A stretch of DNA of 64,000 nt from Desulfuromonadales bacterium (GTDB lineage: Bacteria; Desulfobacterota; Desulfuromonadia; Desulfuromonadales; Geopsychrobacteraceae), in NCBI GenBank assembly GCA_019429255.1, contig JAHYIY010000004.1, positions 62,001 through 126,000 on the forward strand. Direction: 5' to 3'. Position numbers and translations under genes: made by a program. The notes under the pieces were generated by a model. That model did no database searches. It was not told where the DNA came from and saw only the letters and a list, made by a program, of their open reading frames with translations. Shown piece after piece: positions 44,574 through 59,885 of the stretch. Positions within the stretch are counted from its first letter, which is position 1; each line of letters starts with the position of its first letter.

Positions 44574-45842
44574 ATGCGTGCTGTTGGTCTGATCACCGAA
44601 TATAACCCGTTCCACAACGGCCACCTGTACCACCTGCGCCGCAGTCTTGAACTGGCGGATGCTGAAGTGGCGGTGGCGGTGATGAGCGGTCATTTTCTCC
44701 AGCGTGGGGAACCGGCGCTGGTGGACAAGTGGGTGCGGGCAGAGATGGCCCTGGCTGCCGGGGTCGATGTCGTGGTTGAATTGCCGCTGCCCTGGGCTTG
44801 CAGCAGCGCTCCGGATTTTGCCCGGGGCGCAATCCAGGCTCTCACCGACCTGGGGGTTAATGCTGTCTGTTTCGGTAGTGAAAGCGGCGACCTGAATGCC
44901 TTGCAGCATTGTGCTGATTTACTTGCAGGAGCACATGAAAGCGTTGAGCAACACACCTCAGCTGCCTTGCGTCGTGGGGTCACATTTCCCCAGGCGCGGG
45001 CCCAAGCGCTGGCGGATCTTTTCCCGGATGCTGACACCAAAGAGATGCTTGCCAACCCGAATAATATCCTCGGCCTTGCCTATCTGCGCGCCTTGGGTGA
45101 AGTTGGCAGTCCTGTCGTGCCACTGACCCTGACCCGGCTTGGTGCCGGTTACCACGATCTCGACGCAAAAGAGGGGATTGCCAGCGCTACCGGCATCCGA
45201 CAGCGTTTGCGTGAGGGCCTCGACATTGACCGCCTGGTTCCTGATCCGGTCGCTAATCTTCTGCGAGAGACATTTTCCAGGGGCATGGGGCTGGACGAAG
45301 ATATCTATTATCGGCTGATGTCCGCGCAGATATTGCGGCAGGCAAATGATCTGACCCGTTACTGGTGGATTGAAGCGGGACTCGAACATCGCCTGATTGC
45401 TGCCGCCGACCAGTCAGCTCAGCTGGAAGAGCTGATCAGCAATATCAAGGCTCGACACCTCACCCGGACCCGGGTGCAACGGGCTTTAGTGGCGGTTCTT
45501 CTCGCTATTGTGAAGGAGACGGCGCAATCGTTATTGGCCTCTCCACCATCCTACCTGCATCTACTCGCGGTCAGTGAGCGCGGTGAGGCATTTCTGGCCT
45601 CTCGGCGCAAACGGCGAACCATTCCCCTGATCCAGAACTTTTCCAGAATTCAGGCCATCCTCAAGCGCCGCTATGGTGCTGAACCTGAGGTGTTGCAGCG
45701 CGCCCAAAACCAGCTTGATCTGCAGGTACGGGCCAGTAGGATCTACTCCCTTTTACAGAAAAATTTTTGCGGCCATCGCCAACGCGATTATTTTGAATCG
45801 CTGCGCAGAGGGTTGCGGTGTTCACAGGGGATGCAAACCTGA
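44574..45842 (+). CDS. Nucleotidyltransferase family protein, TmcAL/YlbM-like
   Basis: MRAVGLITEYNPFHNGHLYHL; VAVMSGHFLQRGEPALVDKW; start placed at 44574. Confidence 0.85.
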   Translation: MRAVGLITEYNPFHNGHLYHLRRSLELADAEVAVAVMSGHFLQRGEPALVDKWVRAEMALAAGVDVVVELPLPWACSSAPDFARGAIQALTDLGVNAVCFGSESGDLNALQHCADLLAGAHESVEQHTSAALRRGVTFPQARAQALADLFPDADTKEMLANPNNILGLAYLRALGEVGSPVVPLTLTRLGAGYHDLDAKEGIASATGIRQRLREGLDIDRLVPDPVANLLRETFSRGMGLDEDIYYRLMSAQILRQANDLTRYWWIEAGLEHRLIAAADQSAQLEELISNIKARHLTRTRVQRALVAVLLAIVKETAQSLLASPPSYLHLLAVSERGEAFLASRRKRRTIPLIQNFSRIQAILKRRYGAEPEVLQRAQNQLDLQVRASRIYSLLQKNFCGHRQRDYFESLRRGLRCSQGMQT

Positions 45843-46651
45843 CACAGCCCACAAGGTGTCACCTCCTGACCGCTGAGTTGTTTGGCGTAGGGGGCAGTGA
45901 CCTGGCGGATGTAGTTATGACAGGCGATTTTGTCGTGTCCGGCTTTGGAAATGGCGGCCACGGGGCAGCGTTTGCTGCAGGCACCACAGGTGCCGCGGGC
46001 ATAAAACAGGCAGTTGGCGGTATGGGTTGCAGCGGTGCGTGGAGTGACTTCAATGTCTGCAGCGACAATCACCGAACCGATGCGGATGGCTTTTCCGGCT
46101 TCACTGATAAAGCCATCTGACAGTCCAAAGGTTCCAAGTCCGGCGGCATAGGCGGCGTGGCGTTCCGACCAGTTCGAGCACAGCCCCGCCTGGGGAGTCT
46201 GACGATAGGCCCAGTCGGATAGCAGGGTCGGCGCCGTCGCCTTGAGCCCCATGTCGATAAATTCATCACGAACCTTACGTCGCAACCATTCATTAAATAG
46301 CTCACCATAATGACGCGAGTAGATCCAGCGCGGAGCCGGCAGTTGCGTTTCCCGTCGCTGATCTGCCAGGGTGCTTTCTGTTTGCGGTAAAATCCAGCTC
46401 ACTACCCGTAAATCTTCCGCTGTTACTGGCTGTTCAGGATAGGCCAGGGCAAATGCTTCTGCCGGTGTCCAGTGCACTGAACCGATGATCTGTTTGTACT
46501 GGGTAAACAGGGGATCATTGCCTGCCGCCACGCCGATCAGCGGACTGCCCCAGGCTTGTTCATCAAACCCATGGAGGTGGTTCTGCGGCGCTTCATTAAC
46601 CAGGGAGATGATCAGTTTTGTGCAGAAGGTGAGATGTTCGGAAGGGGTCAT
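45788..46651 (-). CDS. QueG-like 4Fe-4S double-cluster protein
   Basis: CLFYARGTCGACSKRCPVAAIS...CGLCQVCIPC; 55-bp tail-to-tail overlap with the preceding gene. Confidence 0.8.
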   Translation of the reverse strand: MTPSEHLTFCTKLIISLVNEAPQNHLHGFDEQAWGSPLIGVAAGNDPLFTQYKQIIGSVHWTPAEAFALAYPEQPVTAEDLRVVSWILPQTESTLADQRRETQLPAPRWIYSRHYGELFNEWLRRKVRDEFIDMGLKATAPTLLSDWAYRQTPQAGLCSNWSERHAAYAAGLGTFGLSDGFISEAGKAIRIGSVIVAADIEVTPRTAATHTANCLFYARGTCGACSKRCPVAAISKAGHDKIACHNYIRQVTAPYAKQLSGQEVTPCGLCQVCIPCEHRNPLRSDSK

Positions 46652-46865
46652 CCTTGCTTCCTAATTTTTTTATATGGTGATGTGGCTTCTCAACGGGGTG
46701 ATGTCCTTGACTACCAAAAAGTGATGTTCAGGTCAATTAAACGCAATCGCTACGGACAATATCTGGTTAATTTTAATCAGAACTTTTACCCTGTATGGTA
46801 TTTCGCGATAATTTTGTCGAGAATTGATTTTTCCGGATTGTTTGCTACACTTCTGGTACATATTG

Positions 46866-46985
46866 TTGCACTCAAATGTGAACAATAAATAAATAGTCAT
46901 TAAGAGGTAGGCATGAAATCATTTTCGTGACCTGTTTAATGGGAAGCCGCTGCGGACTCTGGTTCGGCAGCGGCTTTTTGCTTTG
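46866..46985 (+). ncRNA. Leader RNA element, copy 1 (terminator-ending)
   Basis: TTGCACTCAAATGTGAACAATAAATAAATAGTCATTAAGAGGTAGGCATGAAATCA...; near-identical to 52250-52368. Confidence 0.65.
46944..46979 (+). terminator. Terminator of leader RNA copy 1
   Basis: AGCCGCTGC ... GCAGCGGCTTTTTG. Confidence 0.8.
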
Positions 46986-46990
46986 TTTTT

Positions 46991-47119
46991 GGATTGATTT
47001 GCTTTGGGGTCTCAGGAGTTGTAACACTAGTTTTTTCTACACCCCCGGAAGTCATCACGTTTTCGCGTACAATGCCTACTGATGTCTTGGTTGGCAAAGC
47101 CGACGGCGCGTGGAACTGA
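46991..47119 (+). pseudogene. Fossil of the N-terminus of the 232-aa secreted repeat protein
   Basis: GLICFGVSGVVTLVFSTPPEVITFSRTMPTDVLVGKADGAWN* aligns gap-free with GLIWVFIGGSALPALSAPPEVIKFSRTMPIDALAGRADTDL of the 52392 gene. Confidence 0.8.
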
Positions 47120-47211
47120 TACCCCGCTAGAAGGTTAGCGTTGCGCTGGAGCCCAAAAGGTGGCGGGACTATCCCGGTTGCTCTCGCTTACAATCAAAAA
47201 ACCGTGAGGAG

Positions 47212-48774
47212 TTGTCGATGGAATCATTAGCAAAGTTAAGAACTGTCGCTGTCGTTGGCATTCTCGGGTTGGTGGTATTTTGTTTCTTGTTCCTCGGCGC
47301 CAGTCATGCGGAGACGCCGCTGAAACCATCTGCGAACCAAATGCAAATCCAGAAAAAAGAACCGGTTTCCATCCCTGCGACGATCAAACCGCTCAGCACA
47401 CTGCCGGACCTGACTGTCAAAACACCGTCATGGTCATCTGCTCCAAAGGCAGGCGATACGGTCGGTATGTCTTCCTCACTGCATATCACTATGCTGAACC
47501 AGGGCAGCGCTCCTACCCCGGTTATGGACAGCAAGCTGAAAATCACCTGCCAGTCATTGAGCGGAGCCGCTTGTCCAGGGGCTTTAACAGGTATCATCAG
47601 TGTCCAGCCCCTGGCACCCGGGATGTCCGTGACCTATGCATGGCCGCCCGCCAGCCCTTCTGAAAAGTGGGCTCCCGGTAAATATCAAATGACATTTACC
47701 GCCGATGCTTCCATGCAGGTCCAGGAATCCAATGAGACCAACAACACCAGTCAGTTGATTTTTACCATTCTTCCCGGACTCAATATCCAGCAGGGCACCC
47801 TGGACAGCACAAAGGTTCAGCGGGCCCCGTCAGTTGCTGCGGCTATAATTGCGGCCATACCGGTTCAGCATCCTCTGCAGGGATCAACCCATGATGCTGG
47901 AAAACCGCTGCAAATCCGGTGGAGCAAGACCCTTCTCAGTAACTACGCCACCGTTGATATCCATCTTCTGGGCGGAAATGACGGAAAGCTCTTCGAAACC
48001 ATAAAAAAGGGGGCGGTCAACAGTGGGGAATATATTGCCTGGACAGCACCACAGAAATACGCCGGGCCTGGCAGCGTATACAAAGTTCAAATCGTCACCC
48101 CGGATCAAAAGATTTCAGGTCATTCAGGGATTTTTTCCATCCATATCCCGTCGAAGAAAAAAGTGCCGTTCATGGTGGATGCCACTATCAGCAACAGCTG
48201 GGCATATGCGAGGGGGGGCGATCTGAGCCCGGCGGACTGCATGTCCGCGCCGCAGATCCAGGCCGGGCGGCCACCCGGCAGCCAAGAGGTGAAAATTGGT
48301 CATTTTGTCAAAAGTGGCAAACATGGTGACTGCGGCTACTACGACAAATATTATTTCCGTTCCCGGGTATATTTTGACATGAGTTTTTACAAGGACAAAG
48401 AAATCGTCGAAGCCGCTTTAATGATCAGGATGGGGGATACCATTGATCTGATACCGGGTAGTAATGAGGCCAAGCACGCGACCAACGTGGAAATATCCAG
48501 CCATTGCGACATTTATCTGCTCAATGGTTCCTGGCCGAATTCCCCGCAGCCGCTTTACAATTTTTACCCGGGTACCTTTCTCAAGAATTTTTCCATGTCC
48601 GCGCAAGGTGAAACGGTAAACGTCGAGCTGCTCAGCGTGGTTAAAGACTGGACCGCGGGAAAAGCCAACCATGGACTGATGCTTCGTGGTCCGCTCAACC
48701 AGTCAAAATACAGCAACAGTGCCAGTGTTAAATATTATCATTCGGTCAAACTGGTGGGCTGGTACCTGGAATAG
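47212..48774 (+). CDS. Exported CARDB-domain protein
   Basis: Signal peptide; LPDLTVKTPSW...NQGSAP...VQESNETNNTSQL. Confidence 0.8.
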   Translation: MSMESLAKLRTVAVVGILGLVVFCFLFLGASHAETPLKPSANQMQIQKKEPVSIPATIKPLSTLPDLTVKTPSWSSAPKAGDTVGMSSSLHITMLNQGSAPTPVMDSKLKITCQSLSGAACPGALTGIISVQPLAPGMSVTYAWPPASPSEKWAPGKYQMTFTADASMQVQESNETNNTSQLIFTILPGLNIQQGTLDSTKVQRAPSVAAAIIAAIPVQHPLQGSTHDAGKPLQIRWSKTLLSNYATVDIHLLGGNDGKLFETIKKGAVNSGEYIAWTAPQKYAGPGSVYKVQIVTPDQKISGHSGIFSIHIPSKKKVPFMVDATISNSWAYARGGDLSPADCMSAPQIQAGRPPGSQEVKIGHFVKSGKHGDCGYYDKYYFRSRVYFDMSFYKDKEIVEAALMIRMGDTIDLIPGSNEAKHATNVEISSHCDIYLLNGSWPNSPQPLYNFYPGTFLKNFSMSAQGETVNVELLSVVKDWTAGKANHGLMLRGPLNQSKYSNSASVKYYHSVKLVGWYLE

Positions 48775-48856
48775 GTATTGGAGAAAAGAGAGAGACGGCA
48801 AAATGAGGGAAAAAGGAGGAATGTCCATGAAATTATGTGTTGCTAGCTTTTTTGCT

Positions 48857-49219
48857 TTAGAGAATACATGAGGGGTCAGTCTTTGAAACGACGGATTTTT
48901 TCCCCGGCAGTTTATCCTGTTGGCGCTGTTCCAGCACAGTTTCTATGGTCTGTGGCAGTATCCAGCAGATAACACGCAAGTTTCGCGGGTCAAAAGCCAC
49001 ATCAGGATAAGCGATGGACATAGCTTCTGCCGGTGTCCAGTGAACGTCTCCGATGACCTGTTTGTAGGTCATGAATAGCAGATCGTCCCCAGCCGCGATG
49101 CCGATCAACGGTTCTCCCCAAGCGCGCCCATCAAGATCATGCAGATGGTTTTCAGCAGATTCATTAACCAGCTGTGTGATGCGATTAGTCCAAAACCCTC
49201 GTCTTTCCATTGGTGTCAT
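48857..49219 (-). pseudogene. Truncated paralogue of the QueG-like gene (N-terminal third only)
   Basis: MTPMERRGFWTNRITQLVNESAENHLHDLDGRAWGEPLIGIAAGDDLLFMTYKQVIGDVHWTPAEA aligns with the 45788-46651 product; Fe-S region missing. Confidence 0.85.
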
Positions 49220-49407
49220 GGTCGCGTCTCCGCTCAAGGTGTTTATCGTGGGATGCTTTCTGTCAGTTGTAACAGATTCCGTTTTTAGTGCAAATGCATG
49301 CACTACCGTCAACCGGTATTTTTCAACTCTGCAGAGTTGCTTTTCAGGGGGCGGATTGTGATGTTAGGATAAAGAAAAAAAGATGCCTGCCATCTGGAGT
49401 GCTGCTT

Positions 49408-51900
49408 ATGTCCGCTAGGCGCAGAATATTCGTTTTTATCTTTTTCTTCCTGTGCCTGTTGTGGTTATTTCCGGTTTCAGCTGCACCTTTTTCTCCGTCT
49501 GTACCGTCGGTACTTGAGGGTGCCGACGATGAACAATCCATTCCTGTCATTGTCAAACTGCGCACCGTGGAAAGCCCCCCGGTTCTGGCGCGGCTGTATG
49601 GTCGTGCCCGGCGGCAGCAATTTATCTGGGCAATGAGGAGCCGAACCGCGCAGGGCTCTGAGGAAATTCGTCATTTGTTGCAGGGGTACGGGATTGTTCC
49701 GCGTCAGTTGTGGTTGGTTGACGCCATTGCTTTCAGTGCTACTCCTGCAATGATCACCCAGATAGCCCAGATGGCTGAGGTAGAAGCGGTGACAACCGAT
49801 GACCTCATCCAGATGCCCACGGTTTTTGTTGATGGTGTGGCGACCCCCGAATGGAATATCGCTCGAACCGGTGCGCCGCAACTCTGGGCGGAAGGGATCG
49901 ATGGTGCTGGTGTAACCATCGCCATTCTCGATAGTGGCATCAATATTGCGCATCCTGATCTTGCTCCGCGCTGGCGCGATCTTCCAGGGGATTGGTTTGA
50001 TCCCTACGGCAACAGTACAACTCCCTATGATTTCGGCAATTACCATGGAACGGCGGTGGCTAGTGTTGCCGTCGGTGGCAGTGCGGGAGGCACTGCCACC
50101 GGCATGGCTCCCGGCAGTTCAATCATTGCCGCTAAAATATTCCGCGATGACGGTACGGCAAACAATTCCTACATTATCGAAGCTTTGCAGTGGAGCCTTA
50201 ATCCCGGTGGCAACGCCGACTCAGCTCCACATATCATCAATAATTCCTGGGGGTATGCAGACAACCCTGATCAGTGTCAGGAGGGACTGGGATTCGGTTC
50301 TAACCTCCTGCTTTTGCGTAGCGCCATCCAGACCTTGAGGAATGCCGGGATTGCAGTGGTTGCTGCCGCAGGCAATACCGGTCCTTCAGCATCAACCAGC
50401 GTCAGCCCCGCCAATTTTGCCGAAAGTTTCTCTGTCGGTGCTACCGCGCCGAATAACGCCATTGCTCATTTCAGTGCCCGGGGCCCGTCCGCATGTCTGG
50501 ATGATATCACCTTTCCCGATCTGGTCGCCCCGGGGGTTGCCATCAGGGTTGCGGGGGGATCGGCAGGATACCGGGAGTTGTCGGGAACCTCCTTTGCTGC
50601 CCCTCATATAGCCGGTGCCATGGCTTTACTGCTTCAGGCGGCGGGACCGATGCCCGTGGATGAACTGGAAGATCTTCTGGCATTGTCGGCGACGGATCTG
50701 GGAGACGCCGGGGTGGATGATGTCTACGGCTACGGCCTGGTAAATGTGTCTGCAGCCTTGGGTCTGATCGCTGACGCTCCGGCTATTTCCCTGACGGGGA
50801 CGGTGGCGACAGCCGACCCTTCCGTGGAGACCCTTGATTTTGGTGCGCACCTGACCGGCAGCGAACCTGTTACACGGATGGTTACTGTCCGTAACGCGGG
50901 TGGTGGGACGCTGTCTGTTACTGGAGTGAATACACCGACCGCGCCTTTTTCAATAACTGCTGATAGTTGCAACAATGCCTCCCTTGTCGAGGGGGAGGGG
51001 TGCTCATTCAATATCGTTTTTTTGCCGGGGACTTCAGGTTCCTATTCTTCAGCTGTAAACATCACGTCTAATGACCCCCTGCGCCCGCTCATAACCCTTG
51101 AGATATCGGCAGCGCTAGTTGAATCACTGGAACCCCGCTTGAGCATTCATCCGGCTCAGATCCACTACGGGCATGTGCCGCCGGAGAGCGCGGCGGTTGA
51201 AATCCTTTCCCTCACCAATGACGGTGAGGTTACGATCTCAGGCATCACTCCAATGTTAAGCGACCTGTCTGCGCCTTTTTCCCTGAAAACCGATAACTGT
51301 GGTTCATCCCTGGGGGGCGGCGCTACCTGTCATTTGACCTTCAGTTTTTCGCCTGTTGCTGTGGGCGCCTATGAAGGCAGTGTCCTGATCGCATCGTCCG
51401 ATCCGCACAGCGACGATGTGCCGGTGCTGTTTTCCGGCATTGGCAACACTCCACCGAGCAAGCCGCAGCTGGTTTCACCCGCTGATGGTGCGCTGTCAAG
51501 TGGTAACGTGGTTCTCAGCTGGACTGCGGCGACGGATGCAGACGGTGACCCGGTAACCCATACCTTATTGCTGGCAGACAATCAGCAGTTCAATAATCCC
51601 CTGACTTTTCCAGTTCAGCCAGTGGCAACCCTGTTATTGGGTGGAGGTTTATTGGCGCTGACGCTTTTACGGCGCCGGCGGCTGGTGCTCTCGGTTTCTG
51701 TGGTGCTACTGGTAGGCTGGCTTGTCTCCTGTGGAGGTGGAGGGGGTGGAGGCGGCAGCAGTAGTGAAGTCAGTGTCAGTATCAGCAGTATTTCCGTAGA
51801 CGGGCTAAAATCCGGTACAACTTATTACTGGAAAGTGATCGCAGAGGACGATCGGGGTGCAACAACGCAAAGTGATACGCGCTTTTTTTCCGTTGAGTAG
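49408..51900 (+). CDS. S8 family subtilisin-like serine peptidase with ASH-like and Fn3-like domains
   Basis: AILDSGINIAHPDL (D), YHGTAVASVAVG (H), GTSFAAPHIAGAMALL (S); two repeats ending IAFLPG/FSFSPVAVGAY; start placed at MSARRRIFVF. Confidence 0.9.
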   Translation: MSARRRIFVFIFFFLCLLWLFPVSAAPFSPSVPSVLEGADDEQSIPVIVKLRTVESPPVLARLYGRARRQQFIWAMRSRTAQGSEEIRHLLQGYGIVPRQLWLVDAIAFSATPAMITQIAQMAEVEAVTTDDLIQMPTVFVDGVATPEWNIARTGAPQLWAEGIDGAGVTIAILDSGINIAHPDLAPRWRDLPGDWFDPYGNSTTPYDFGNYHGTAVASVAVGGSAGGTATGMAPGSSIIAAKIFRDDGTANNSYIIEALQWSLNPGGNADSAPHIINNSWGYADNPDQCQEGLGFGSNLLLLRSAIQTLRNAGIAVVAAAGNTGPSASTSVSPANFAESFSVGATAPNNAIAHFSARGPSACLDDITFPDLVAPGVAIRVAGGSAGYRELSGTSFAAPHIAGAMALLLQAAGPMPVDELEDLLALSATDLGDAGVDDVYGYGLVNVSAALGLIADAPAISLTGTVATADPSVETLDFGAHLTGSEPVTRMVTVRNAGGGTLSVTGVNTPTAPFSITADSCNNASLVEGEGCSFNIVFLPGTSGSYSSAVNITSNDPLRPLITLEISAALVESLEPRLSIHPAQIHYGHVPPESAAVEILSLTNDGEVTISGITPMLSDLSAPFSLKTDNCGSSLGGGATCHLTFSFSPVAVGAYEGSVLIASSDPHSDDVPVLFSGIGNTPPSKPQLVSPADGALSSGNVVLSWTAATDADGDPVTHTLLLADNQQFNNPLTFPVQPVATLLLGGGLLALTLLRRRRLVLSVSVVLLVGWLVSCGGGGGGGGSSSEVSVSISSISVDGLKSGTTYYWKVIAEDDRGATTQSDTRFFSVE

Positions 51901-52249
51901 TTTCCGCGAAAAAGCTGTCAGGGCCCAGATGGTCATTCCCAGTTGCGCGCTTTCCGGTCTGATGGCTTCTGTTTTTCTGAGCTGAAGCTGATGCTGCTGC
52001 TGCCGCACATCAGTTCTATTTCGTTGCGTTGATCGGCAAGGTTCTTTCTGCCTACGACAACTTACAAATAGTTGCAGCCATCACATAGATTTCGGTTTCC
52101 TGTTGTGCGCTGGTTGTCTCAATGGAAAGTATTTGGTTCCAGCAGCAATGATTTTTTTATTAGGTTTTGCCTATACATTGTCGGTTTTTACAATTTTTTT
52201 ACTGAACCTTAATTTTTAGGTTTTTTTTGTACACTCTCATAAGCTATTA

Positions 52250-52368
52250 TTGCACTCAAATGTGAACAACAAATAAATAGTCATTGAGAGGTAGGCATGA
52301 AATCAGTTTCATCGCCTGTTTAATGTGAAGCCGCTACGGACTCTGGTTCGTCAGCGGCTTTTTGCTTT
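52250..52368 (+). ncRNA. Leader RNA element, copy 2 (terminator-ending)
   Basis: TTGCACTCAAATGTGAACAACAAATAAATAGTCATTGAGAGGTAGGCATGAAATCA...; near-identical to 46866-46985. Confidence 0.65.
52328..52363 (+). terminator. Terminator of leader RNA copy 2
   Basis: AGCCGCTACGGACTCTGGTTCGTCAGCGGCTTTTTG; stem retained with A-U replacing a G-C pair and one bulge. Confidence 0.75.
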
Positions 52369-52391
52369 CTTAAGTGGGAAAGGAAAAAGGT

Positions 52392-53072
52392 ATGAGGAGG
52401 ACAGCTGGAGTGAGAGGCTTAAGGTGGGTACGGCGCTGTTATCTGCGCAACATGATACTGATGGTTGCTGGATTGATCTGGGTTTTTATCGGTGGGAGCG
52501 CATTACCGGCCTTGTCGGCGCCACCGGAAGTCATTAAGTTTTCGCGGACCATGCCGATTGATGCCCTTGCCGGTCGGGCAGATACGGATCTGGTAGAACT
52601 CTCTGATGGGCGCCGCCTTAAGGTCGCCGATGTTCGGCGCCTCACCCAAACTGCCCAACAAATCAGGGCAGCGGTGCCCGGCAGTCGTATGCCCCAGGCG
52701 CTGAAAATCAAACCGGCCGCAAAAGGCACCCCGGTGCGCAATGCCAATGATCTGGCGGCTGCGCTCAAACGTCCTGACAGCGAGACCCTCGAATTGCCGA
52801 ATGGCCGTACCCTTACCGTCGGTCAGCTCAAGCTGGTGCGTGAGGAGGTCGAACTCCGCCTGGGGCACAGCTTGGCGAACCTGCCCCAGCGCCCCGATCT
52901 TAGAGGCGCGGCTATCAAGGTGGATGCCAATTCCGACTGGGCAGCTTTATTGCAGCGTCCTGATAATACGGTTCTTGAATCTCCTAACGGCACCCGCATC
53001 ACCGTAGGCGAGTTGAAAAAATCCCTGGCGGGGGCAGGCACATCGCGGCCGCTGCCAACCGGCAGACGTTAA
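52392..53072 (+). CDS. Exported protein with three ~28-residue repeats
   Basis: N-terminal hydrophobic signal; repeats LVELSDGRRLKVADVRRL / ETLELPNGRTLTVGQLKLV / TVLESPNGTRITVGELKKS. Confidence 0.75.
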   Translation: MRRTAGVRGLRWVRRCYLRNMILMVAGLIWVFIGGSALPALSAPPEVIKFSRTMPIDALAGRADTDLVELSDGRRLKVADVRRLTQTAQQIRAAVPGSRMPQALKIKPAAKGTPVRNANDLAAALKRPDSETLELPNGRTLTVGQLKLVREEVELRLGHSLANLPQRPDLRGAAIKVDANSDWAALLQRPDNTVLESPNGTRITVGELKKSLAGAGTSRPLPTGRR

Positions 53073-53082
53073 GGAGGCGACC

Positions 53083-55701
53083 ATGTTAATGCCATTTCCC
53101 TTACGTCGGTTTTTATTTGTCGGATGTATGCTTCTTGTTCTGCTCGGTGTTCAGGCTCCAGCCGTTAAGGCAGATGTTATCGATGATTTGGCCAACCTTC
53201 TGGAAGCAGTTGAAGAATTCAGTGGCCCCATCAGTTGGTTGCCGGTTAGCGGAAAAGACATCAGAGACTCAAGGGATTTAATCAATTGTATTGAGAACGC
53301 TGGTAATGATGTAGCAGTTCTAACGTGTATGGAGAATTATCGTAATACTCCAGTGGGGCAAAGTATTGGACAAGAATCGGGTATTCCCTCCTGGTTCTGG
53401 GATCTGATGGATACTTATATTGCTTTTCGTGTTGGTGATTATTGGGAACTGGTGCTCAGACTCGGCAAGGCTGCCGTATGTATTATTGCCCAGTTTGTCA
53501 GCGGTGGTGTGGATATCTGCGCACTCGTTGAGGCCCTGATTGAAATCGGCAAGCAGATGCTTGACGCCGCTACGGCGGTCGCTGAATTTTTTATGGATTT
53601 AGGGTCGGCGGTATGGGGCGCGGTCAAGGATGTGGGTTGCGCACTGGGTCTTGGCGGCTGCAGTGACGACAAGACGCCGGCAGAAGTGATCATCTATTAC
53701 TGGGTGTTTGCCCCCAAAGTCAGCCCGGAAGGACTGCAGGCGATTAAGGCTGTCGATGGCACGGCTTTCACCGCATTCAAGTCCCAATTGGAAGCCAATG
53801 CCCTCTCAAAACCACCGAAGGTCAGCGATCCCCTCGTGCAGAATTTTGTCAATGATTCGGGGATCAGTTTTTCCAAAGTGGAAGTTGATATGGCAGCAAA
53901 AATTTATGATAAAGCCGTTGTTGCTCAGTGGTCGGCGGATATCGTTGAGAATGTTCTGATCGATCTGGTCCAGGCCCGTAACAGCTACGGCACCCCCGCG
54001 CAGATTGCTGCCCTGGCCGGGCCGGCCATCGCCGACAACGCACCGAGTGGTGCCAACATCAAAAATCAGGCCGGGTACTTATGTACGGCTGATTTCAATC
54101 AGAACATGGGTTTTGCCCATGTCGACCGTTGGGTGTATCGCTTTTCCGCGGAAGCGCAGACACTCAGTCTCGTCTCCAATTTCGGCTGGTGTCAGACCTC
54201 GTTCTGGAGTCCCCAGGTGCGCAGCGAGTTTGCCAAGCATCTGCGCAAATATGTCGGCGATCACTATTGTTCTTTGTCAGGTTCGCAATTGCGCTGCGCG
54301 TCCCTGGAAAAATATGAAGCCTGTGCGAGCATGATGGGGGTCGTCGACTATGAGGGGGACTGTGCTGTTGACAGGACCAAAGTCGGCAAGGAAGTCGCCG
54401 AAAAGATCGCGGCCGAACTCAAGGCCAGAGGTTCGACCCATACCTATGCCATCCGGGCGCCATTACTTCAGATTGCCGCAAAACCGGTGGATCTGGTCTG
54501 CGTTCGCCCCACCCAGGTGCATGCCTGCAATAATATTTACCAGTCCATGTTTGCTCACCTGCCCGAGCAGGTGGTCAACTGTAAATTGGAGATGTCCCCG
54601 GCCTACGTTGCACTGACGCAGGCGACAGCGGCAGAAGCCGACCGTTTGGCGAAGAAGTATCAGCAACCAATCGTTGTCGATGGCCTTGATCCGCTGATCG
54701 TTGTGGCGCCGTCCACTCAGCTTATTGACAGTGTTCAAAACGATCCGCAGCAACAGTTTGTGTTCCAGTTCAATCCCCTGAAAATTCCGCGCAGTATCGA
54801 TGGGGTTAACCAACCGACCATGGCCTACGACATGGAATTGCCCACACCGCAGGGAAGTTTCAGCCGTGATCAGCTCAAAGACGAGATTCTTGGTTTTCGT
54901 GAAGGCGGCGGCGTCGATCCCTATGAGAAAAACATCCGTGATCGGATTACGTCACCGGTGGATCGGGTGACCTTGCCCACTGAGCGTCTCACCACCGACC
55001 AGTTCCAGCAGGTGCGTCCCCAGGCCTTGGAGCAGACTCGCCTGTCAGAGCAGATGACGACAGGTGCTCCCGGTCAATTGCGTTCGACCTTGCCGGGACA
55101 GGCGACCCTCACCCCGGAGGGGATGGCAGGTGAAGCAATGCGGCCGATGAGTGGCGGTGTGGCGCCTACAGGAGTCCAGGGGGGCGGCGCTCCACTGGCC
55201 AGTGGACAGCTCCAGTTGCCTCCGCAGCAGGTTCAGCCATTGCAGGCTACGGCGCTCCCTGATCTGACGGCAGATGTGCAGGTCCTCATCGGCGGGAGCA
55301 GAACGGCCTGGGGGCAGCAAGTGACTCTGGCGGCGGATCAGGCGCAAAAAAAAGAGCAGGGCACTTGTTTTTTTCCGGTTCAATACGGGGTTAACAATAT
55401 GAGCACGGTAGCAGCGGGTCCCTTCTACAGTGCATGGGACAATGTCTTGGTGCCGACGCCTGTCGGGAGAAACTGGACAGGTTTGGCGGCTGGGGCAAAG
55501 GCAACACATACCGATCTGTTACCCCTCAAACCCGGCAACAATGCCATTACCCTGACCCTGGATCAGCGTCGGCAGGTTCAGGAAAGCGATGAAAACAATA
55601 ATCTGTTCAGGCTCAATGTGCTCCTCAATGGCAGTTGCGAGGTTCTGCAGCGGCAACCCTCCGCTCCGGCGCCTCCGCGCTTGCCGACACCCGGTCGCTG
55701 A
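53083..55701 (+). CDS. Large secreted protein of unknown function with C-terminal CARDB-like domain
   Basis: Signal peptide; Cys-containing N-terminal part; C-terminus ALPDLTADVQVLIGG...VQESDENNNLFRL. Confidence 0.75.
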   Translation: MLMPFPLRRFLFVGCMLLVLLGVQAPAVKADVIDDLANLLEAVEEFSGPISWLPVSGKDIRDSRDLINCIENAGNDVAVLTCMENYRNTPVGQSIGQESGIPSWFWDLMDTYIAFRVGDYWELVLRLGKAAVCIIAQFVSGGVDICALVEALIEIGKQMLDAATAVAEFFMDLGSAVWGAVKDVGCALGLGGCSDDKTPAEVIIYYWVFAPKVSPEGLQAIKAVDGTAFTAFKSQLEANALSKPPKVSDPLVQNFVNDSGISFSKVEVDMAAKIYDKAVVAQWSADIVENVLIDLVQARNSYGTPAQIAALAGPAIADNAPSGANIKNQAGYLCTADFNQNMGFAHVDRWVYRFSAEAQTLSLVSNFGWCQTSFWSPQVRSEFAKHLRKYVGDHYCSLSGSQLRCASLEKYEACASMMGVVDYEGDCAVDRTKVGKEVAEKIAAELKARGSTHTYAIRAPLLQIAAKPVDLVCVRPTQVHACNNIYQSMFAHLPEQVVNCKLEMSPAYVALTQATAAEADRLAKKYQQPIVVDGLDPLIVVAPSTQLIDSVQNDPQQQFVFQFNPLKIPRSIDGVNQPTMAYDMELPTPQGSFSRDQLKDEILGFREGGGVDPYEKNIRDRITSPVDRVTLPTERLTTDQFQQVRPQALEQTRLSEQMTTGAPGQLRSTLPGQATLTPEGMAGEAMRPMSGGVAPTGVQGGGAPLASGQLQLPPQQVQPLQATALPDLTADVQVLIGGSRTAWGQQVTLAADQAQKKEQGTCFFPVQYGVNNMSTVAAGPFYSAWDNVLVPTPVGRNWTGLAAGAKATHTDLLPLKPGNNAITLTLDQRRQVQESDENNNLFRLNVLLNGSCEVLQRQPSAPAPPRLPTPGR

Positions 55702-55756
55702 TGGTTTGGTAGAAGATGTCACATTGTGAACATTTGCACTGATGCAGGAGTAGAGT

Positions 55757-57475
55757 ATGAATCATCGAACTGGCGTACTGAATCTGGTGGTGTCGGTGAT
55801 CTGTTGGTTGCTGTGGGGGCCGGGGGTGCTGACCCCGGTCCAGGCTGCGGAGAGGATTCTCCTGGCCAGCAACGATCAGGTTCTGGTGGCCTGGCAGGAG
55901 GGGCAACAGGGTGGGCCGACCCCGCAGTTGGTTGCGCAGGAGGATGGCGGCACCGTCATTCAATGGCAGGGAAATGTCAGCTACGATTTTTACCGGCGTG
56001 AGAGCAGGGGAGGGCATCTGGTTACCCCTTATGGTACCGGTAATTTTTATCAGGGGCGTCTGGCCAGTGATGTGCGTGCCCTGCACCCACGGGGGTCCGT
56101 CTCCTATCTGCAGTTTTCCGGACGCTACACGGATGATCCTTCGGTATTGTCCAAAGCCGTCGGCGGGCAACTCGATACCCTCCAGTTCGGCCATGTCGGC
56201 ACCGGTTATCAGGTGGCCTTTGGTGACGTTGCCGCCAATTTTTCAACCCTCGGCACCAGCCTGGGCTTGCGCGGGGTTCTTGCGCAAACCCTCCTTGGCA
56301 AGACCACGGTATCTGCTACGGCGGGTTATCTGTCCCAGGACTGGGAAACCCTGGTCGATTCGAGCAAGCGCACTCAGTATCTGCGCCAGGCCTATGCTCT
56401 CAAAATTGAAACCCCGGTGCACGACAACCTGCGGGTTTTTATCAGCGGGCAGGGCTATCGGGATGATTCCGACAGTATTGACGCCGGACTAACCCTGTTG
56501 CCGACGGCTTCCACCCAGGCCGGAACCGTCGGTTTTGCCTTTGATCTTGGTCGCTTTGCCGTCCAGGCCGAAGGGGGGGCGAGCCGTTTTCGGGAAAAGG
56601 GGGGCGAGTCGGAGACTGATCATGCGCTGATTGTTGACGTCGGTTGGTTGTTTGATGCCCTGGCCTTGCGCGCCGGTTACCGCGATATCGGCCTCTACTA
56701 TAACTCGTTATCGACGCAGGGCGGCAACGGTATCGAGGAAATCTATCTTAACGGCAACTGGAGAGCGGCAAGTTGGCTCAGTGTGAATGCCGACCTGCGC
56801 CGTGCTGAAAACGAAATAGCCGGTTTTGGCGGTTCCAGCAGTTTCAGCGAAACCAACGCCCTGGCAACCAGCGCGGTGATTACTTTCGGCCCGGATTTTT
56901 CCGCCTGGAGCCTGATGCTGAACCAGTCGCTCTCCGATGGAGAAAACAGCAACGGCAGTACCAACCGTAACCAGACCTATGGGGCGGTTGTCAGTTATGC
57001 GGATAGCAATTGGAACAGTGGTCTTGGCTATCAGTTGCTGGATGTGAAAAATCGTGGCAGTTACAGCAGCGACAGCCAGATTGATTCCTGGCAGTTTCAT
57101 CTCAGCAGAACCTGGCAGGGATACCGGGAAACTGTGCCTTCCTGGCATCTGACGCCGACCCTGACTGTCAATTATCAGGACCAGAAACTGGATATTGGCA
57201 ATGGTTCCAGTACCTTGAACTGGCAGCTTGGTTTAAGCGGCGAACGTGCCCGTTGGGGATCTTTCGCCGCCGGCTATGGTGAGGGAAGGACTACCCAAAC
57301 CGGCAGGAGTGACCTGCGCCAGCAAAACTGGCAAATTGAAGTCGGCTATCCCTTGTGGAAAGAGGCGCTGCTGAAAGCTTATTACAGCGGCAATCGGGTC
57401 TCAGGCAGTGAGCCGGGGCAGGGGGCCAATTATCGTGAGCAGACATTCGGGCTGCATTTCGCCTGTAATTTATGA
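55757..57475 (+). CDS. Putative outer-membrane beta-barrel protein
   Basis: Signal peptide, alternating amphipathic strands with aromatic-rich ends throughout. Confidence 0.65.
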   Translation: MNHRTGVLNLVVSVICWLLWGPGVLTPVQAAERILLASNDQVLVAWQEGQQGGPTPQLVAQEDGGTVIQWQGNVSYDFYRRESRGGHLVTPYGTGNFYQGRLASDVRALHPRGSVSYLQFSGRYTDDPSVLSKAVGGQLDTLQFGHVGTGYQVAFGDVAANFSTLGTSLGLRGVLAQTLLGKTTVSATAGYLSQDWETLVDSSKRTQYLRQAYALKIETPVHDNLRVFISGQGYRDDSDSIDAGLTLLPTASTQAGTVGFAFDLGRFAVQAEGGASRFREKGGESETDHALIVDVGWLFDALALRAGYRDIGLYYNSLSTQGGNGIEEIYLNGNWRAASWLSVNADLRRAENEIAGFGGSSSFSETNALATSAVITFGPDFSAWSLMLNQSLSDGENSNGSTNRNQTYGAVVSYADSNWNSGLGYQLLDVKNRGSYSSDSQIDSWQFHLSRTWQGYRETVPSWHLTPTLTVNYQDQKLDIGNGSSTLNWQLGLSGERARWGSFAAGYGEGRTTQTGRSDLRQQNWQIEVGYPLWKEALLKAYYSGNRVSGSEPGQGANYREQTFGLHFACNL

Positions 57476-57486
57476 GGATAAATCCG

Positions 57487-58266
57487 ATGAAAAAACTTTC
57501 CATGACCCTTCTGATACTGATTCTATGCTCCTTGTTCTGCTCTCTGGCGGTTGCCCAGGCGGTTGAAGACAAAGCACCCCCCAGCGGCTTTTCCGTGCCC
57601 GACTTCAGTGAAGCACGCAAGGCGCGCGCCGTCCTTGATAGCTTCATTCGCGCCTACGAAGCCGGTCAGGTGCATCAGTTGCGGGCCATGCTGGATCCCG
57701 GCATGATCGGCTATCAGCGCTTTATTGACGGGGTGATAGAGGATCAAAGTCGCCTCAAGCAGATTCGCCTGCATTTGTTGGATACCCAGATCATGGCCGC
57801 TGCGGATGTCACCCTGATTGAAACACGCTGGGAAAAACGCTTTCTGGCAACGGATCTGCGGCCGGGGTTGTTTGCCGGTAGCAGTCGTTTTCTCATGCAC
57901 CGCACGGACCAGGGGTGGAATCTGGCCGCCATCGGTGGTGACAACCCCTTTTCCAGTCAGAGCGGGGTGCTGGCACAACTTAATCTGACCAACGCCAGCC
58001 TGGTGGATGAGGCGCGCGTCAATGTCGAAGTCATCGATCCGGATATGGCCGGTTCGGGTACGTTGGAGGTCCAGTTGACTTACGTAGATTCTCTTGTCCC
58101 TCAAGTGACTACCGCACTTGCGCTGACGGAAACCACGCCGGGTCGCTTCATCACCCTGACCCCCTTTGTCGTCCGCCCTGGTGAAGTGACGTTGCGTTAC
58201 CTCGATGCCAATCCTGGGGATGGCCGTCCTCCAACCACCCTGACGCGCACTGTTCGGGTGCCATGA
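57487..58266 (+). CDS. Exported protein of unknown function
   Basis: MKKLSMTLLILILCSLFCSLAVAQA signal peptide; SnoaL/NTF2-like start (LDSFIRAYEAGQVHQLRAML) and Ig-like tail. Confidence 0.65.
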   Translation: MKKLSMTLLILILCSLFCSLAVAQAVEDKAPPSGFSVPDFSEARKARAVLDSFIRAYEAGQVHQLRAMLDPGMIGYQRFIDGVIEDQSRLKQIRLHLLDTQIMAAADVTLIETRWEKRFLATDLRPGLFAGSSRFLMHRTDQGWNLAAIGGDNPFSSQSGVLAQLNLTNASLVDEARVNVEVIDPDMAGSGTLEVQLTYVDSLVPQVTTALALTETTPGRFITLTPFVVRPGEVTLRYLDANPGDGRPPTTLTRTVRVP

Positions 58267-58340
58267 GGGCGCACAGCCATCGCGGTATAGTTAGGGGAAA
58301 GGGGATGAGGTGTTGCAGGTGAGACAAGGGTCGCGCAACC

Positions 58341-59885
58341 TCACCCCTGTTTCTCTGAGCCGAAACGGATGCCGCAGCGTGGCAAAATGATGCGGTGGAG
58401 GATCAGGACGATAGCGATGATCACGGCAGCCGCACCAAACAGACCGAGGACGCCGCCGAGGCTGCCGAGGGTATCGTAGGCAAACACAATGCCGTAGGCC
58501 AGGACCAGCATGATGACGCCGCTGATCAGTTTGAGAATGCGCCCGTGTTTTTCTTCAAAAACACTTTTTTTCAGGGTGATGACCGCCGTCGCCAGAATGG
58601 CAATTTCGACCCCCAGATAGATGGTCAGATAAATCACAAAAAGCAGCGCAAATTCGATACCGTTGACCCCTTGTTGGGCGGCGATGTTGGACCAGATAAC
58701 CGGAAAGCCGGCGGTACAGGGCAGTTCCACCAGGGTGATGCCGAGGGCCATGATGATGGTGGCGCCGACCATGCCGGCAGTTGACATATCCTGATGGATG
58801 ATGTTGCGCATACGTTTGAAAATTCCCGGCTTGTGCTTGTCGGAGATGGTGAAGCTCACTCCCTGTTGAAACCAGAAATAGTCCTTGATGTTGACCACGG
58901 CAAAGGTCAGAGCCAACAGCCCGACGACAATCTTGATCCAATCTACATACCCCACATACAAAAAGACATTGAGCAGCCCCAGCATGAAGGCCCCATAACC
59001 GGCGGCGGTGGTCAACAGGAACGCCAAGCCGACAATGATAATTTTGCGGCGCGAGCGGGTATGCAGCAGAATGCCCAAAAGGATGGTAAGCAGCCAGATT
59101 GAACAGGGATTAAAACCATCGACAACGGCGATCAGCACGGTTGTCAGCAGCAGGGGCATGGTGCCGATATTGATATCACCGAACAGGGGAACGCTGATGG
59201 TGTCGGTTGCGGTTGTTGGGGGTGTTTCGCCGCCGTGCTGCAGGCCAAGAAGTTTTTCCAGCTCGCCGCGCATCTCGTCGGGAAAATGTTCACGGTAGCC
59301 GATCCAGTGACGCTCACCGATAAAGGTTAAGGGAACACTGTGAGAATCAATGCCGTATTTGTTGGTGGCTTCGAGAAAGCGCTGCTGATTGGCACGGTCG
59401 TAGTACACTTCATAATCACGCAGTTCAACCTCGGGAAAGTCCGCTGCCAGCTGTTCGAGTTGGGGTTTCAGACGTTCGCAGAAAGGGCAACCGATGCCCC
59501 AGAAATAGAGAATTTCGTGGGCTGCATGTGAGCGGCTTGTCAGAGCCGGGCTATCTATGCTGCTCCAACCGAAGCTGTCGGTTGTCAGGGAAGGAACCAG
59601 TGGACTGCCGGCAACCCCCTGGCAGGCCGTATCACTGCCGGCGTCGATATTGTCAGGGCAATCGGGGACTGCTTCGCAACGCATATTCAAAGGATTGTAT
59701 TTTTGACCGGGAGCACAATCGATGAAGGCGTTTGCCTGAAGGGCGCCGCCAAATAAAAGAGCAAACGCAACAATCAATCCTGTCGCGACAATCACTCTTT
59801 GGTAGATAAAATGAGTCAAGGCTCTGGCCATCGTTGTTCCATTATCTGCGTTGAGAAGGTGAGTGCTTTGCGAATCGGTTGGCAA
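58341..59885 (-). CDS. Periplasmic thioredoxin/glutaredoxin-like domain fused to DsbD/CcdA-like membrane domain
   Basis: YFWGIGCPFCERLKPQLEQL; TM segments with FNPCSIWLL and ELPCTAGFPVIW. Confidence 0.82.
   Translation of the reverse strand: MPTDSQSTHLLNADNGTTMARALTHFIYQRVIVATGLIVAFALLFGGALQANAFIDCAPGQKYNPLNMRCEAVPDCPDNIDAGSDTACQGVAGSPLVPSLTTDSFGWSSIDSPALTSRSHAAHEILYFWGIGCPFCERLKPQLEQLAADFPEVELRDYEVYYDRANQQRFLEATNKYGIDSHSVPLTFIGERHWIGYREHFPDEMRGELEKLLGLQHGGETPPTTATDTISVPLFGDINIGTMPLLLTTVLIAVVDGFNPCSIWLLTILLGILLHTRSRRKIIIVGLAFLLTTAAGYGAFMLGLLNVFLYVGYVDWIKIVVGLLALTFAVVNIKDYFWFQQGVSFTISDKHKPGIFKRMRNIIHQDMSTAGMVGATIIMALGITLVELPCTAGFPVIWSNIAAQQGVNGIEFALLFVIYLTIYLGVEIAILATAVITLKKSVFEEKHGRILKLISGVIMLVLAYGIVFAYDTLGSLGGVLGLFGAAAVIIAIVLILHRIILPRCGIRFGSEKQG

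Follow-up and report, generated by a model that had tools for sequence, protein, structure and literature searches.

A two-copy candidate premature-termination leader in an exported-protein island of a Desulfuromonadales bacterium

Premature termination of transcription is widespread in the 5' UTRs of E. coli, with or without uORFs (PMC7815308). The 5'-UTR transcription attenuators described there (PMC7815308) and the locus analyzed here have the same order of promoter, structured leader, intrinsic terminator, RBS and gene. The present leader differs in that its termination, and any ligand or regulator, are hypothetical, and no antiterminator pairing is visible. A literature search found nothing specific on attenuators in this bacterial group. 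Leader-peptide attenuators of the trpL, ermC and mef types are similar in having a short ORF with an SD before a terminator, but in the present case the peptide is not conserved between copies and no mutually exclusive hairpins occur. Riboswitches of the c-di-GMP-I class (GEMM-I, RF01051) are represented elsewhere in this genome by three copies (L079, L080 and L081), each with a hairpin and T-run after the aptamer. The leader lacks the GACGCAAAGCC-type conserved aptamer core of these copies, and yields no match of usable score. With the ops/JUMPstart element, which is read by RfaH-type NusG paralogues, it shares only GGTAG in GAGGTAGGCATG. Processive antitermination of the RfaH/ops type was considered and rejected: the genome assembly has one NusG-domain gene and no specialised paralogue.

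We class the element as a candidate premature-termination leader, an orphan with no credible relative in the other genomes searched. It is a direct repeat at 46861-46987 and 52245-52371, with 91% identity across 127 nt and 5.4 kb between copies, and the two neighbourhoods match each other by blastn with an E value of 5.6e-48. No third copy is present in the whole genome; the near-identical pair reported in the preliminary description is real and is the only one. The leaders themselves differ by 10 substitutions and no indels in 123 alignment columns. The parts of the two copies are as follows.

46824-46851, plus strand: candidate promoter of copy 1, TTGATT-N16-TACACT with extended -10 TGC; weak, 8/12 consensus matches
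46861-46984, plus strand: leader RNA, copy 1; 91% identical to copy 2, MFE z -4.06 versus shuffles
46861-46887, plus strand: 5' dyad of copy 1, TATTGTT-G-CAC-TCAAAT-GTG-AACAATA, predicted from folds
46898-46941, plus strand: central hairpin of copy 1, predicted from folds; the micro-ORF's SD and AUG are paired within it
46913-46930, plus strand: micro-ORF of copy 1, MKSFS-stop
46943-46984, plus strand: intrinsic terminator of copy 1, T-run 46975-46984, -20.7 kcal/mol and TTTTTGCTTT
52209-52235, plus strand: candidate promoter of copy 2, TTAATT-N15-TACACT; weak by consensus
52245-52368, plus strand: leader RNA, copy 2; 91% identical to copy 1, MFE z -3.19 versus shuffles
52282-52325, plus strand: central hairpin of copy 2, predicted from folds; contains the micro-ORF's SD and AUG
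52297-52323, plus strand: micro-ORF of copy 2, MKSVSSPV-stop
52327-52368, plus strand: intrinsic terminator of copy 2, T-run 52359-52368, -18.7 kcal/mol and TTTTTGCTTT

The TACACT hexamers previously noted 5' of both copies are found at 46846-46851 and 52230-52235. They belong to the upstream segments TTGATTTTTCCGGATTGTTTGCTACACT and TTAATTTTTAGGTTTTTTTTGTACACT, which align with a score of 13, versus 6 for the best of 300 shuffles, and are the sole resemblance 5' of the conserved block. Each reads as a weak -35/-10 pair that ends 9 nt before the block. Because a promoter scan reveals further weak promoter-like sites upstream, in numbers not above chance, the start site can be placed only provisionally. 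The block begins at approximately the predicted transcript start and ends with the T-run, and thus coincides with the predicted transcript.

Terminators had been claimed for both copies, and they are as described; in a scan of the window (the whole 64,000-nt stretch of DNA analyzed), they are the most stable of the matches to a hairpin followed by a T-run. The predicted fold of each copy consists of the central hairpin and the terminator hairpin, and is more stable than those of shuffled sequences. The equivalent of the 5' dyad in copy 2 (52245-52271) is weakened by two substitutions, which turn two outer pairs into A.C mismatches. The terminator stem of copy 2 was thought to have an A-U pair in place of G-C, but the change is instead a register shift in which the bulge moves, from G at alignment column 107 in copy 1 to C at column 108 in copy 2. 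Columns 92 and 107 both differ, and the partner of column 92 shifts from 108 to 107. There is no compensatory pair between the copies, and RNAalifold shows 0 pairs changed on both sides. When the same substitutions were placed at random, none of 3000 placements was as stable as that observed in one direction, and 8.7% were in the other. This low-power comparison, clear in one direction and weak in the other, is suggestive of substitutions that keep the modeled structure better than random ones do. Folds of truncated transcripts, as predicted by the energy model, show no stable upstream pairing with the 5' arm of the terminator that might constitute an antiterminator.

No Rfam family matches the window at the gathering score, and relaxed thresholds give only unrelated families far below the cut-off, which agrees with the earlier inability to assign the element to c-di-GMP-I or another class. 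Because the c-di-GMP-I riboswitches of this genome score well above the cut-off, this type of search works on the genome. In family genomes, plasmids and phages, blastn with the leader recovers only its own two copies, and a covariance model of the leader finds no credible relative in 44 genomes of the family, 136 of the order, 277 of the class and a 395-genome sample of the phylum. Three weak covariance matches were rejected: that in G082 is only the terminator of a cytochrome-like gene, and those in G012 and G183 align poorly and were judged to be chance. Patterns of 17 to 20 nt gave four exact 17-mer matches in viral contigs, none of which scores with the covariance model, and no 20-mer matches. 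Because no homologue was found in these samples, covariation is unavailable as evidence, and on this point the preliminary description was too generous.

Both copies lie in an island of about 11.7 kb (46663-58346) whose G+C content is that of its flanks. The island is bordered by a queG-like gene on one side and a gene for a glutaredoxin-domain membrane protein on the other, and is absent from two genomes of the same genus (G042 and G040), where the 58341 gene adjoins the queG-like gene. It encodes exported proteins: one with a CARDB domain (47218), a subtilase at 49288-51900 and those of an operon (52392-58266). The subtilase has a choice-of-anchor D domain and, approximately 100 residues from the C-terminus, a hydrophobic stretch that has an Arg cluster and precedes a Cys-Gly run; it also weakly matches the lipo-invert anchoring domain of NCBIfam. 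Its gene is flanked by a truncated queG-like copy (48857-49312, 71% DNA identity over 170 nt) and by a 38-nt piece (51963-52000) that is similar to the end of the 58341 gene on its 3' side (84% to G042), which looks as if this intergenic spot had taken up cargo repeatedly. The sequences downstream of the leaders are as follows.

46982-47107, plus strand: degenerate fragment of a 52392-gene paralogue; 52% to residues 30-71 in a translated search, E 4.7e-6
47218-48774, plus strand: exported protein in which Pfam recognizes CARDB and Kre9/KNH-like domains; first intact gene 3' of copy 1
52392-53072, plus strand: orphan exported protein; first gene 3' of copy 2, RBS AAAGGAAAAAGGT
53083-58266, plus strand: rest of the operon, closely spaced genes for 872-aa, 572-aa outer-membrane-like and 264-aa proteins

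The 52392-53072 protein belongs to no Pfam or NCBIfam family, and the 872-aa protein matches CARDB below threshold. A search of the genome contig collection found no relatives of the downstream genes. Diverged orthologues of the first two operon genes occur in a single genome from a different family (G051); the second gene was matched at 34%, the first on the basis of its position and sequence similarity. The region 5' of that orthologous operon contains neither the leader nor any Rfam family.

Each copy had been said to precede exported-protein genes. This is true of copy 2, which lies directly before the ATG at 52392, but copy 1 precedes the dead paralogue fragment, and the next intact gene begins only at 47218. 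The remnant starts at the end of the signal peptide, its RBS and start codon having been deleted. Beyond the leader repeat, similarity resumes after a 76-nt gap as a DNA repeat (47033-47084 and 52512-52563, 79%). The duplication, as read from sequence, took in the leader and the start of its downstream gene, not the RNA alone. The preliminary description omitted this remnant, which explains the two copies. Judged by identity, no part of the duplicated block is better preserved than the leader (113/123, versus 66/100 in the adjacent gene start, Fisher p 1.4e-6). Identity in the leader is also higher than in the truncated queG-like copy (48857-49312; 190/295, p 1.7e-9), a weaker comparison in that this fragment may stem from a different duplication event. 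The likeness of the two leaders has been kept by either selection or gene conversion.

We consider it probable, with some reserve, that both elements are 5' leaders of transcription units with a terminator, acting by transcription attenuation in cis. The last T of the copy-2 T-run is at 52368, only 23 nt, including the RBS, before the ATG, so there is no room for another promoter; because the RBS lies between T-run and ATG, transcription that enters the operon from upstream has to traverse the terminator. The gene 5' of copy 1 (45788-46651) is divergent, on the minus strand, and thus the terminator cannot serve it. These two arrangements favor a leader with a cis terminator, and in copy 2 an intrinsic terminator does lie between the predicted promoter and the first gene. 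The structured, terminated leader RNA first proposed is thus supported by fold stability (z -4.1 and -3.2), the terminators, the bounded block and the 23-nt gap. RNA polymerase would start near 46858-46861 and 52242-52245 and produce an RNA of about 125 nt with the central hairpin, mostly stopping at the terminator. Expression of the exported-protein genes would then depend entirely on read-through, and the leader would set, or conditionally control, the output of the operon. Read-through might be controlled by a protein bound to the hairpin or to the 5' dyad, by a ribosome on the micro-ORF, or by nothing; in the last case, a reasonable interpretation, the leader would be a fixed brake. The second copy would have arisen by duplication of the leader and the start of its gene, after which the copy-1 gene decayed and the leader was kept, perhaps by recent gene conversion rather than selection. 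Copy 1 probably now serves the 47218 gene; no promoter-like site is found between 46985 and 47218 at the scan threshold.

The element might instead be a trans-acting small RNA in two copies, ended by the terminator, with the downstream genes as bystanders or recipients of leaky read-through. This is unlikely but has some support: the promoter, RNA and terminator form a compact unit, the AU-rich 5' part includes a 20-nt invariant run, and copy 1 survives despite the decay of its own gene. However, the next gene after copy 2 has no space for an independent promoter, and because the duplication also carried gene sequence, the RNA was not copied by itself. Moreover, the 5' run has no near-complementary site in the genome (at most 3 mismatches in 20 nt), a test to be read in light of the much shorter pairing that real targets need. 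We regard as still less probable that the pair is a by-product of duplication, in which a promoter and constitutive terminator were recently copied or homogenised by gene conversion and have no regulatory role. The copies do share one island at close range, linked to a duplicated gene start, and are not conserved in relatives, but the leader has diverged much less than the adjacent duplicated sequence, and its terminator is directly ahead of an operon that it would otherwise silence.

A role for the ribosome is suggested by the micro-ORFs: as described earlier, GAGGTAGGC-ATG is followed by MKSFS-stop in one copy and MKSVSSPV-stop in the other, and the GAGG-N5-ATG-type start region is conserved. 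Translation to the stop codon might cover the 5' arm of the terminator and cause read-through, or stalling might alter it, and in copy 2 the end of the stop codon is 3 nt from the terminator stem. Such control is nevertheless improbable. The copy-1 ORF stops 12 nt before the stem, the SD and AUG are within a hairpin in both folds, and comparison of the two copies reveals no conserved short coding sequence, as peptide and stop differ after MKS. Because conservation of the micro-ORF stops at codon 3 and the folds predict no antiterminator, neither a leader-peptide switch nor a riboswitch is supported. The label "riboswitch-like" therefore does not hold: the truncated folds provide no two mutually exclusive structures under the energy model, and no aptamer with covariation was found across species in the genomes searched. 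It is likewise improbable that the element represents an orphan, lineage-specific class of regulatory RNA whose hairpin and 5' dyad bind a ligand or protein, co-ordinating two surface-protein units of the 11.7-kb island.

As it stands, the attenuator candidate is local and ordinary-looking. If active, it would show a transcriptional brake on a lineage-specific cluster of exported proteins, and a leader that outlived the gene with which it was copied and was then taken over by another gene.
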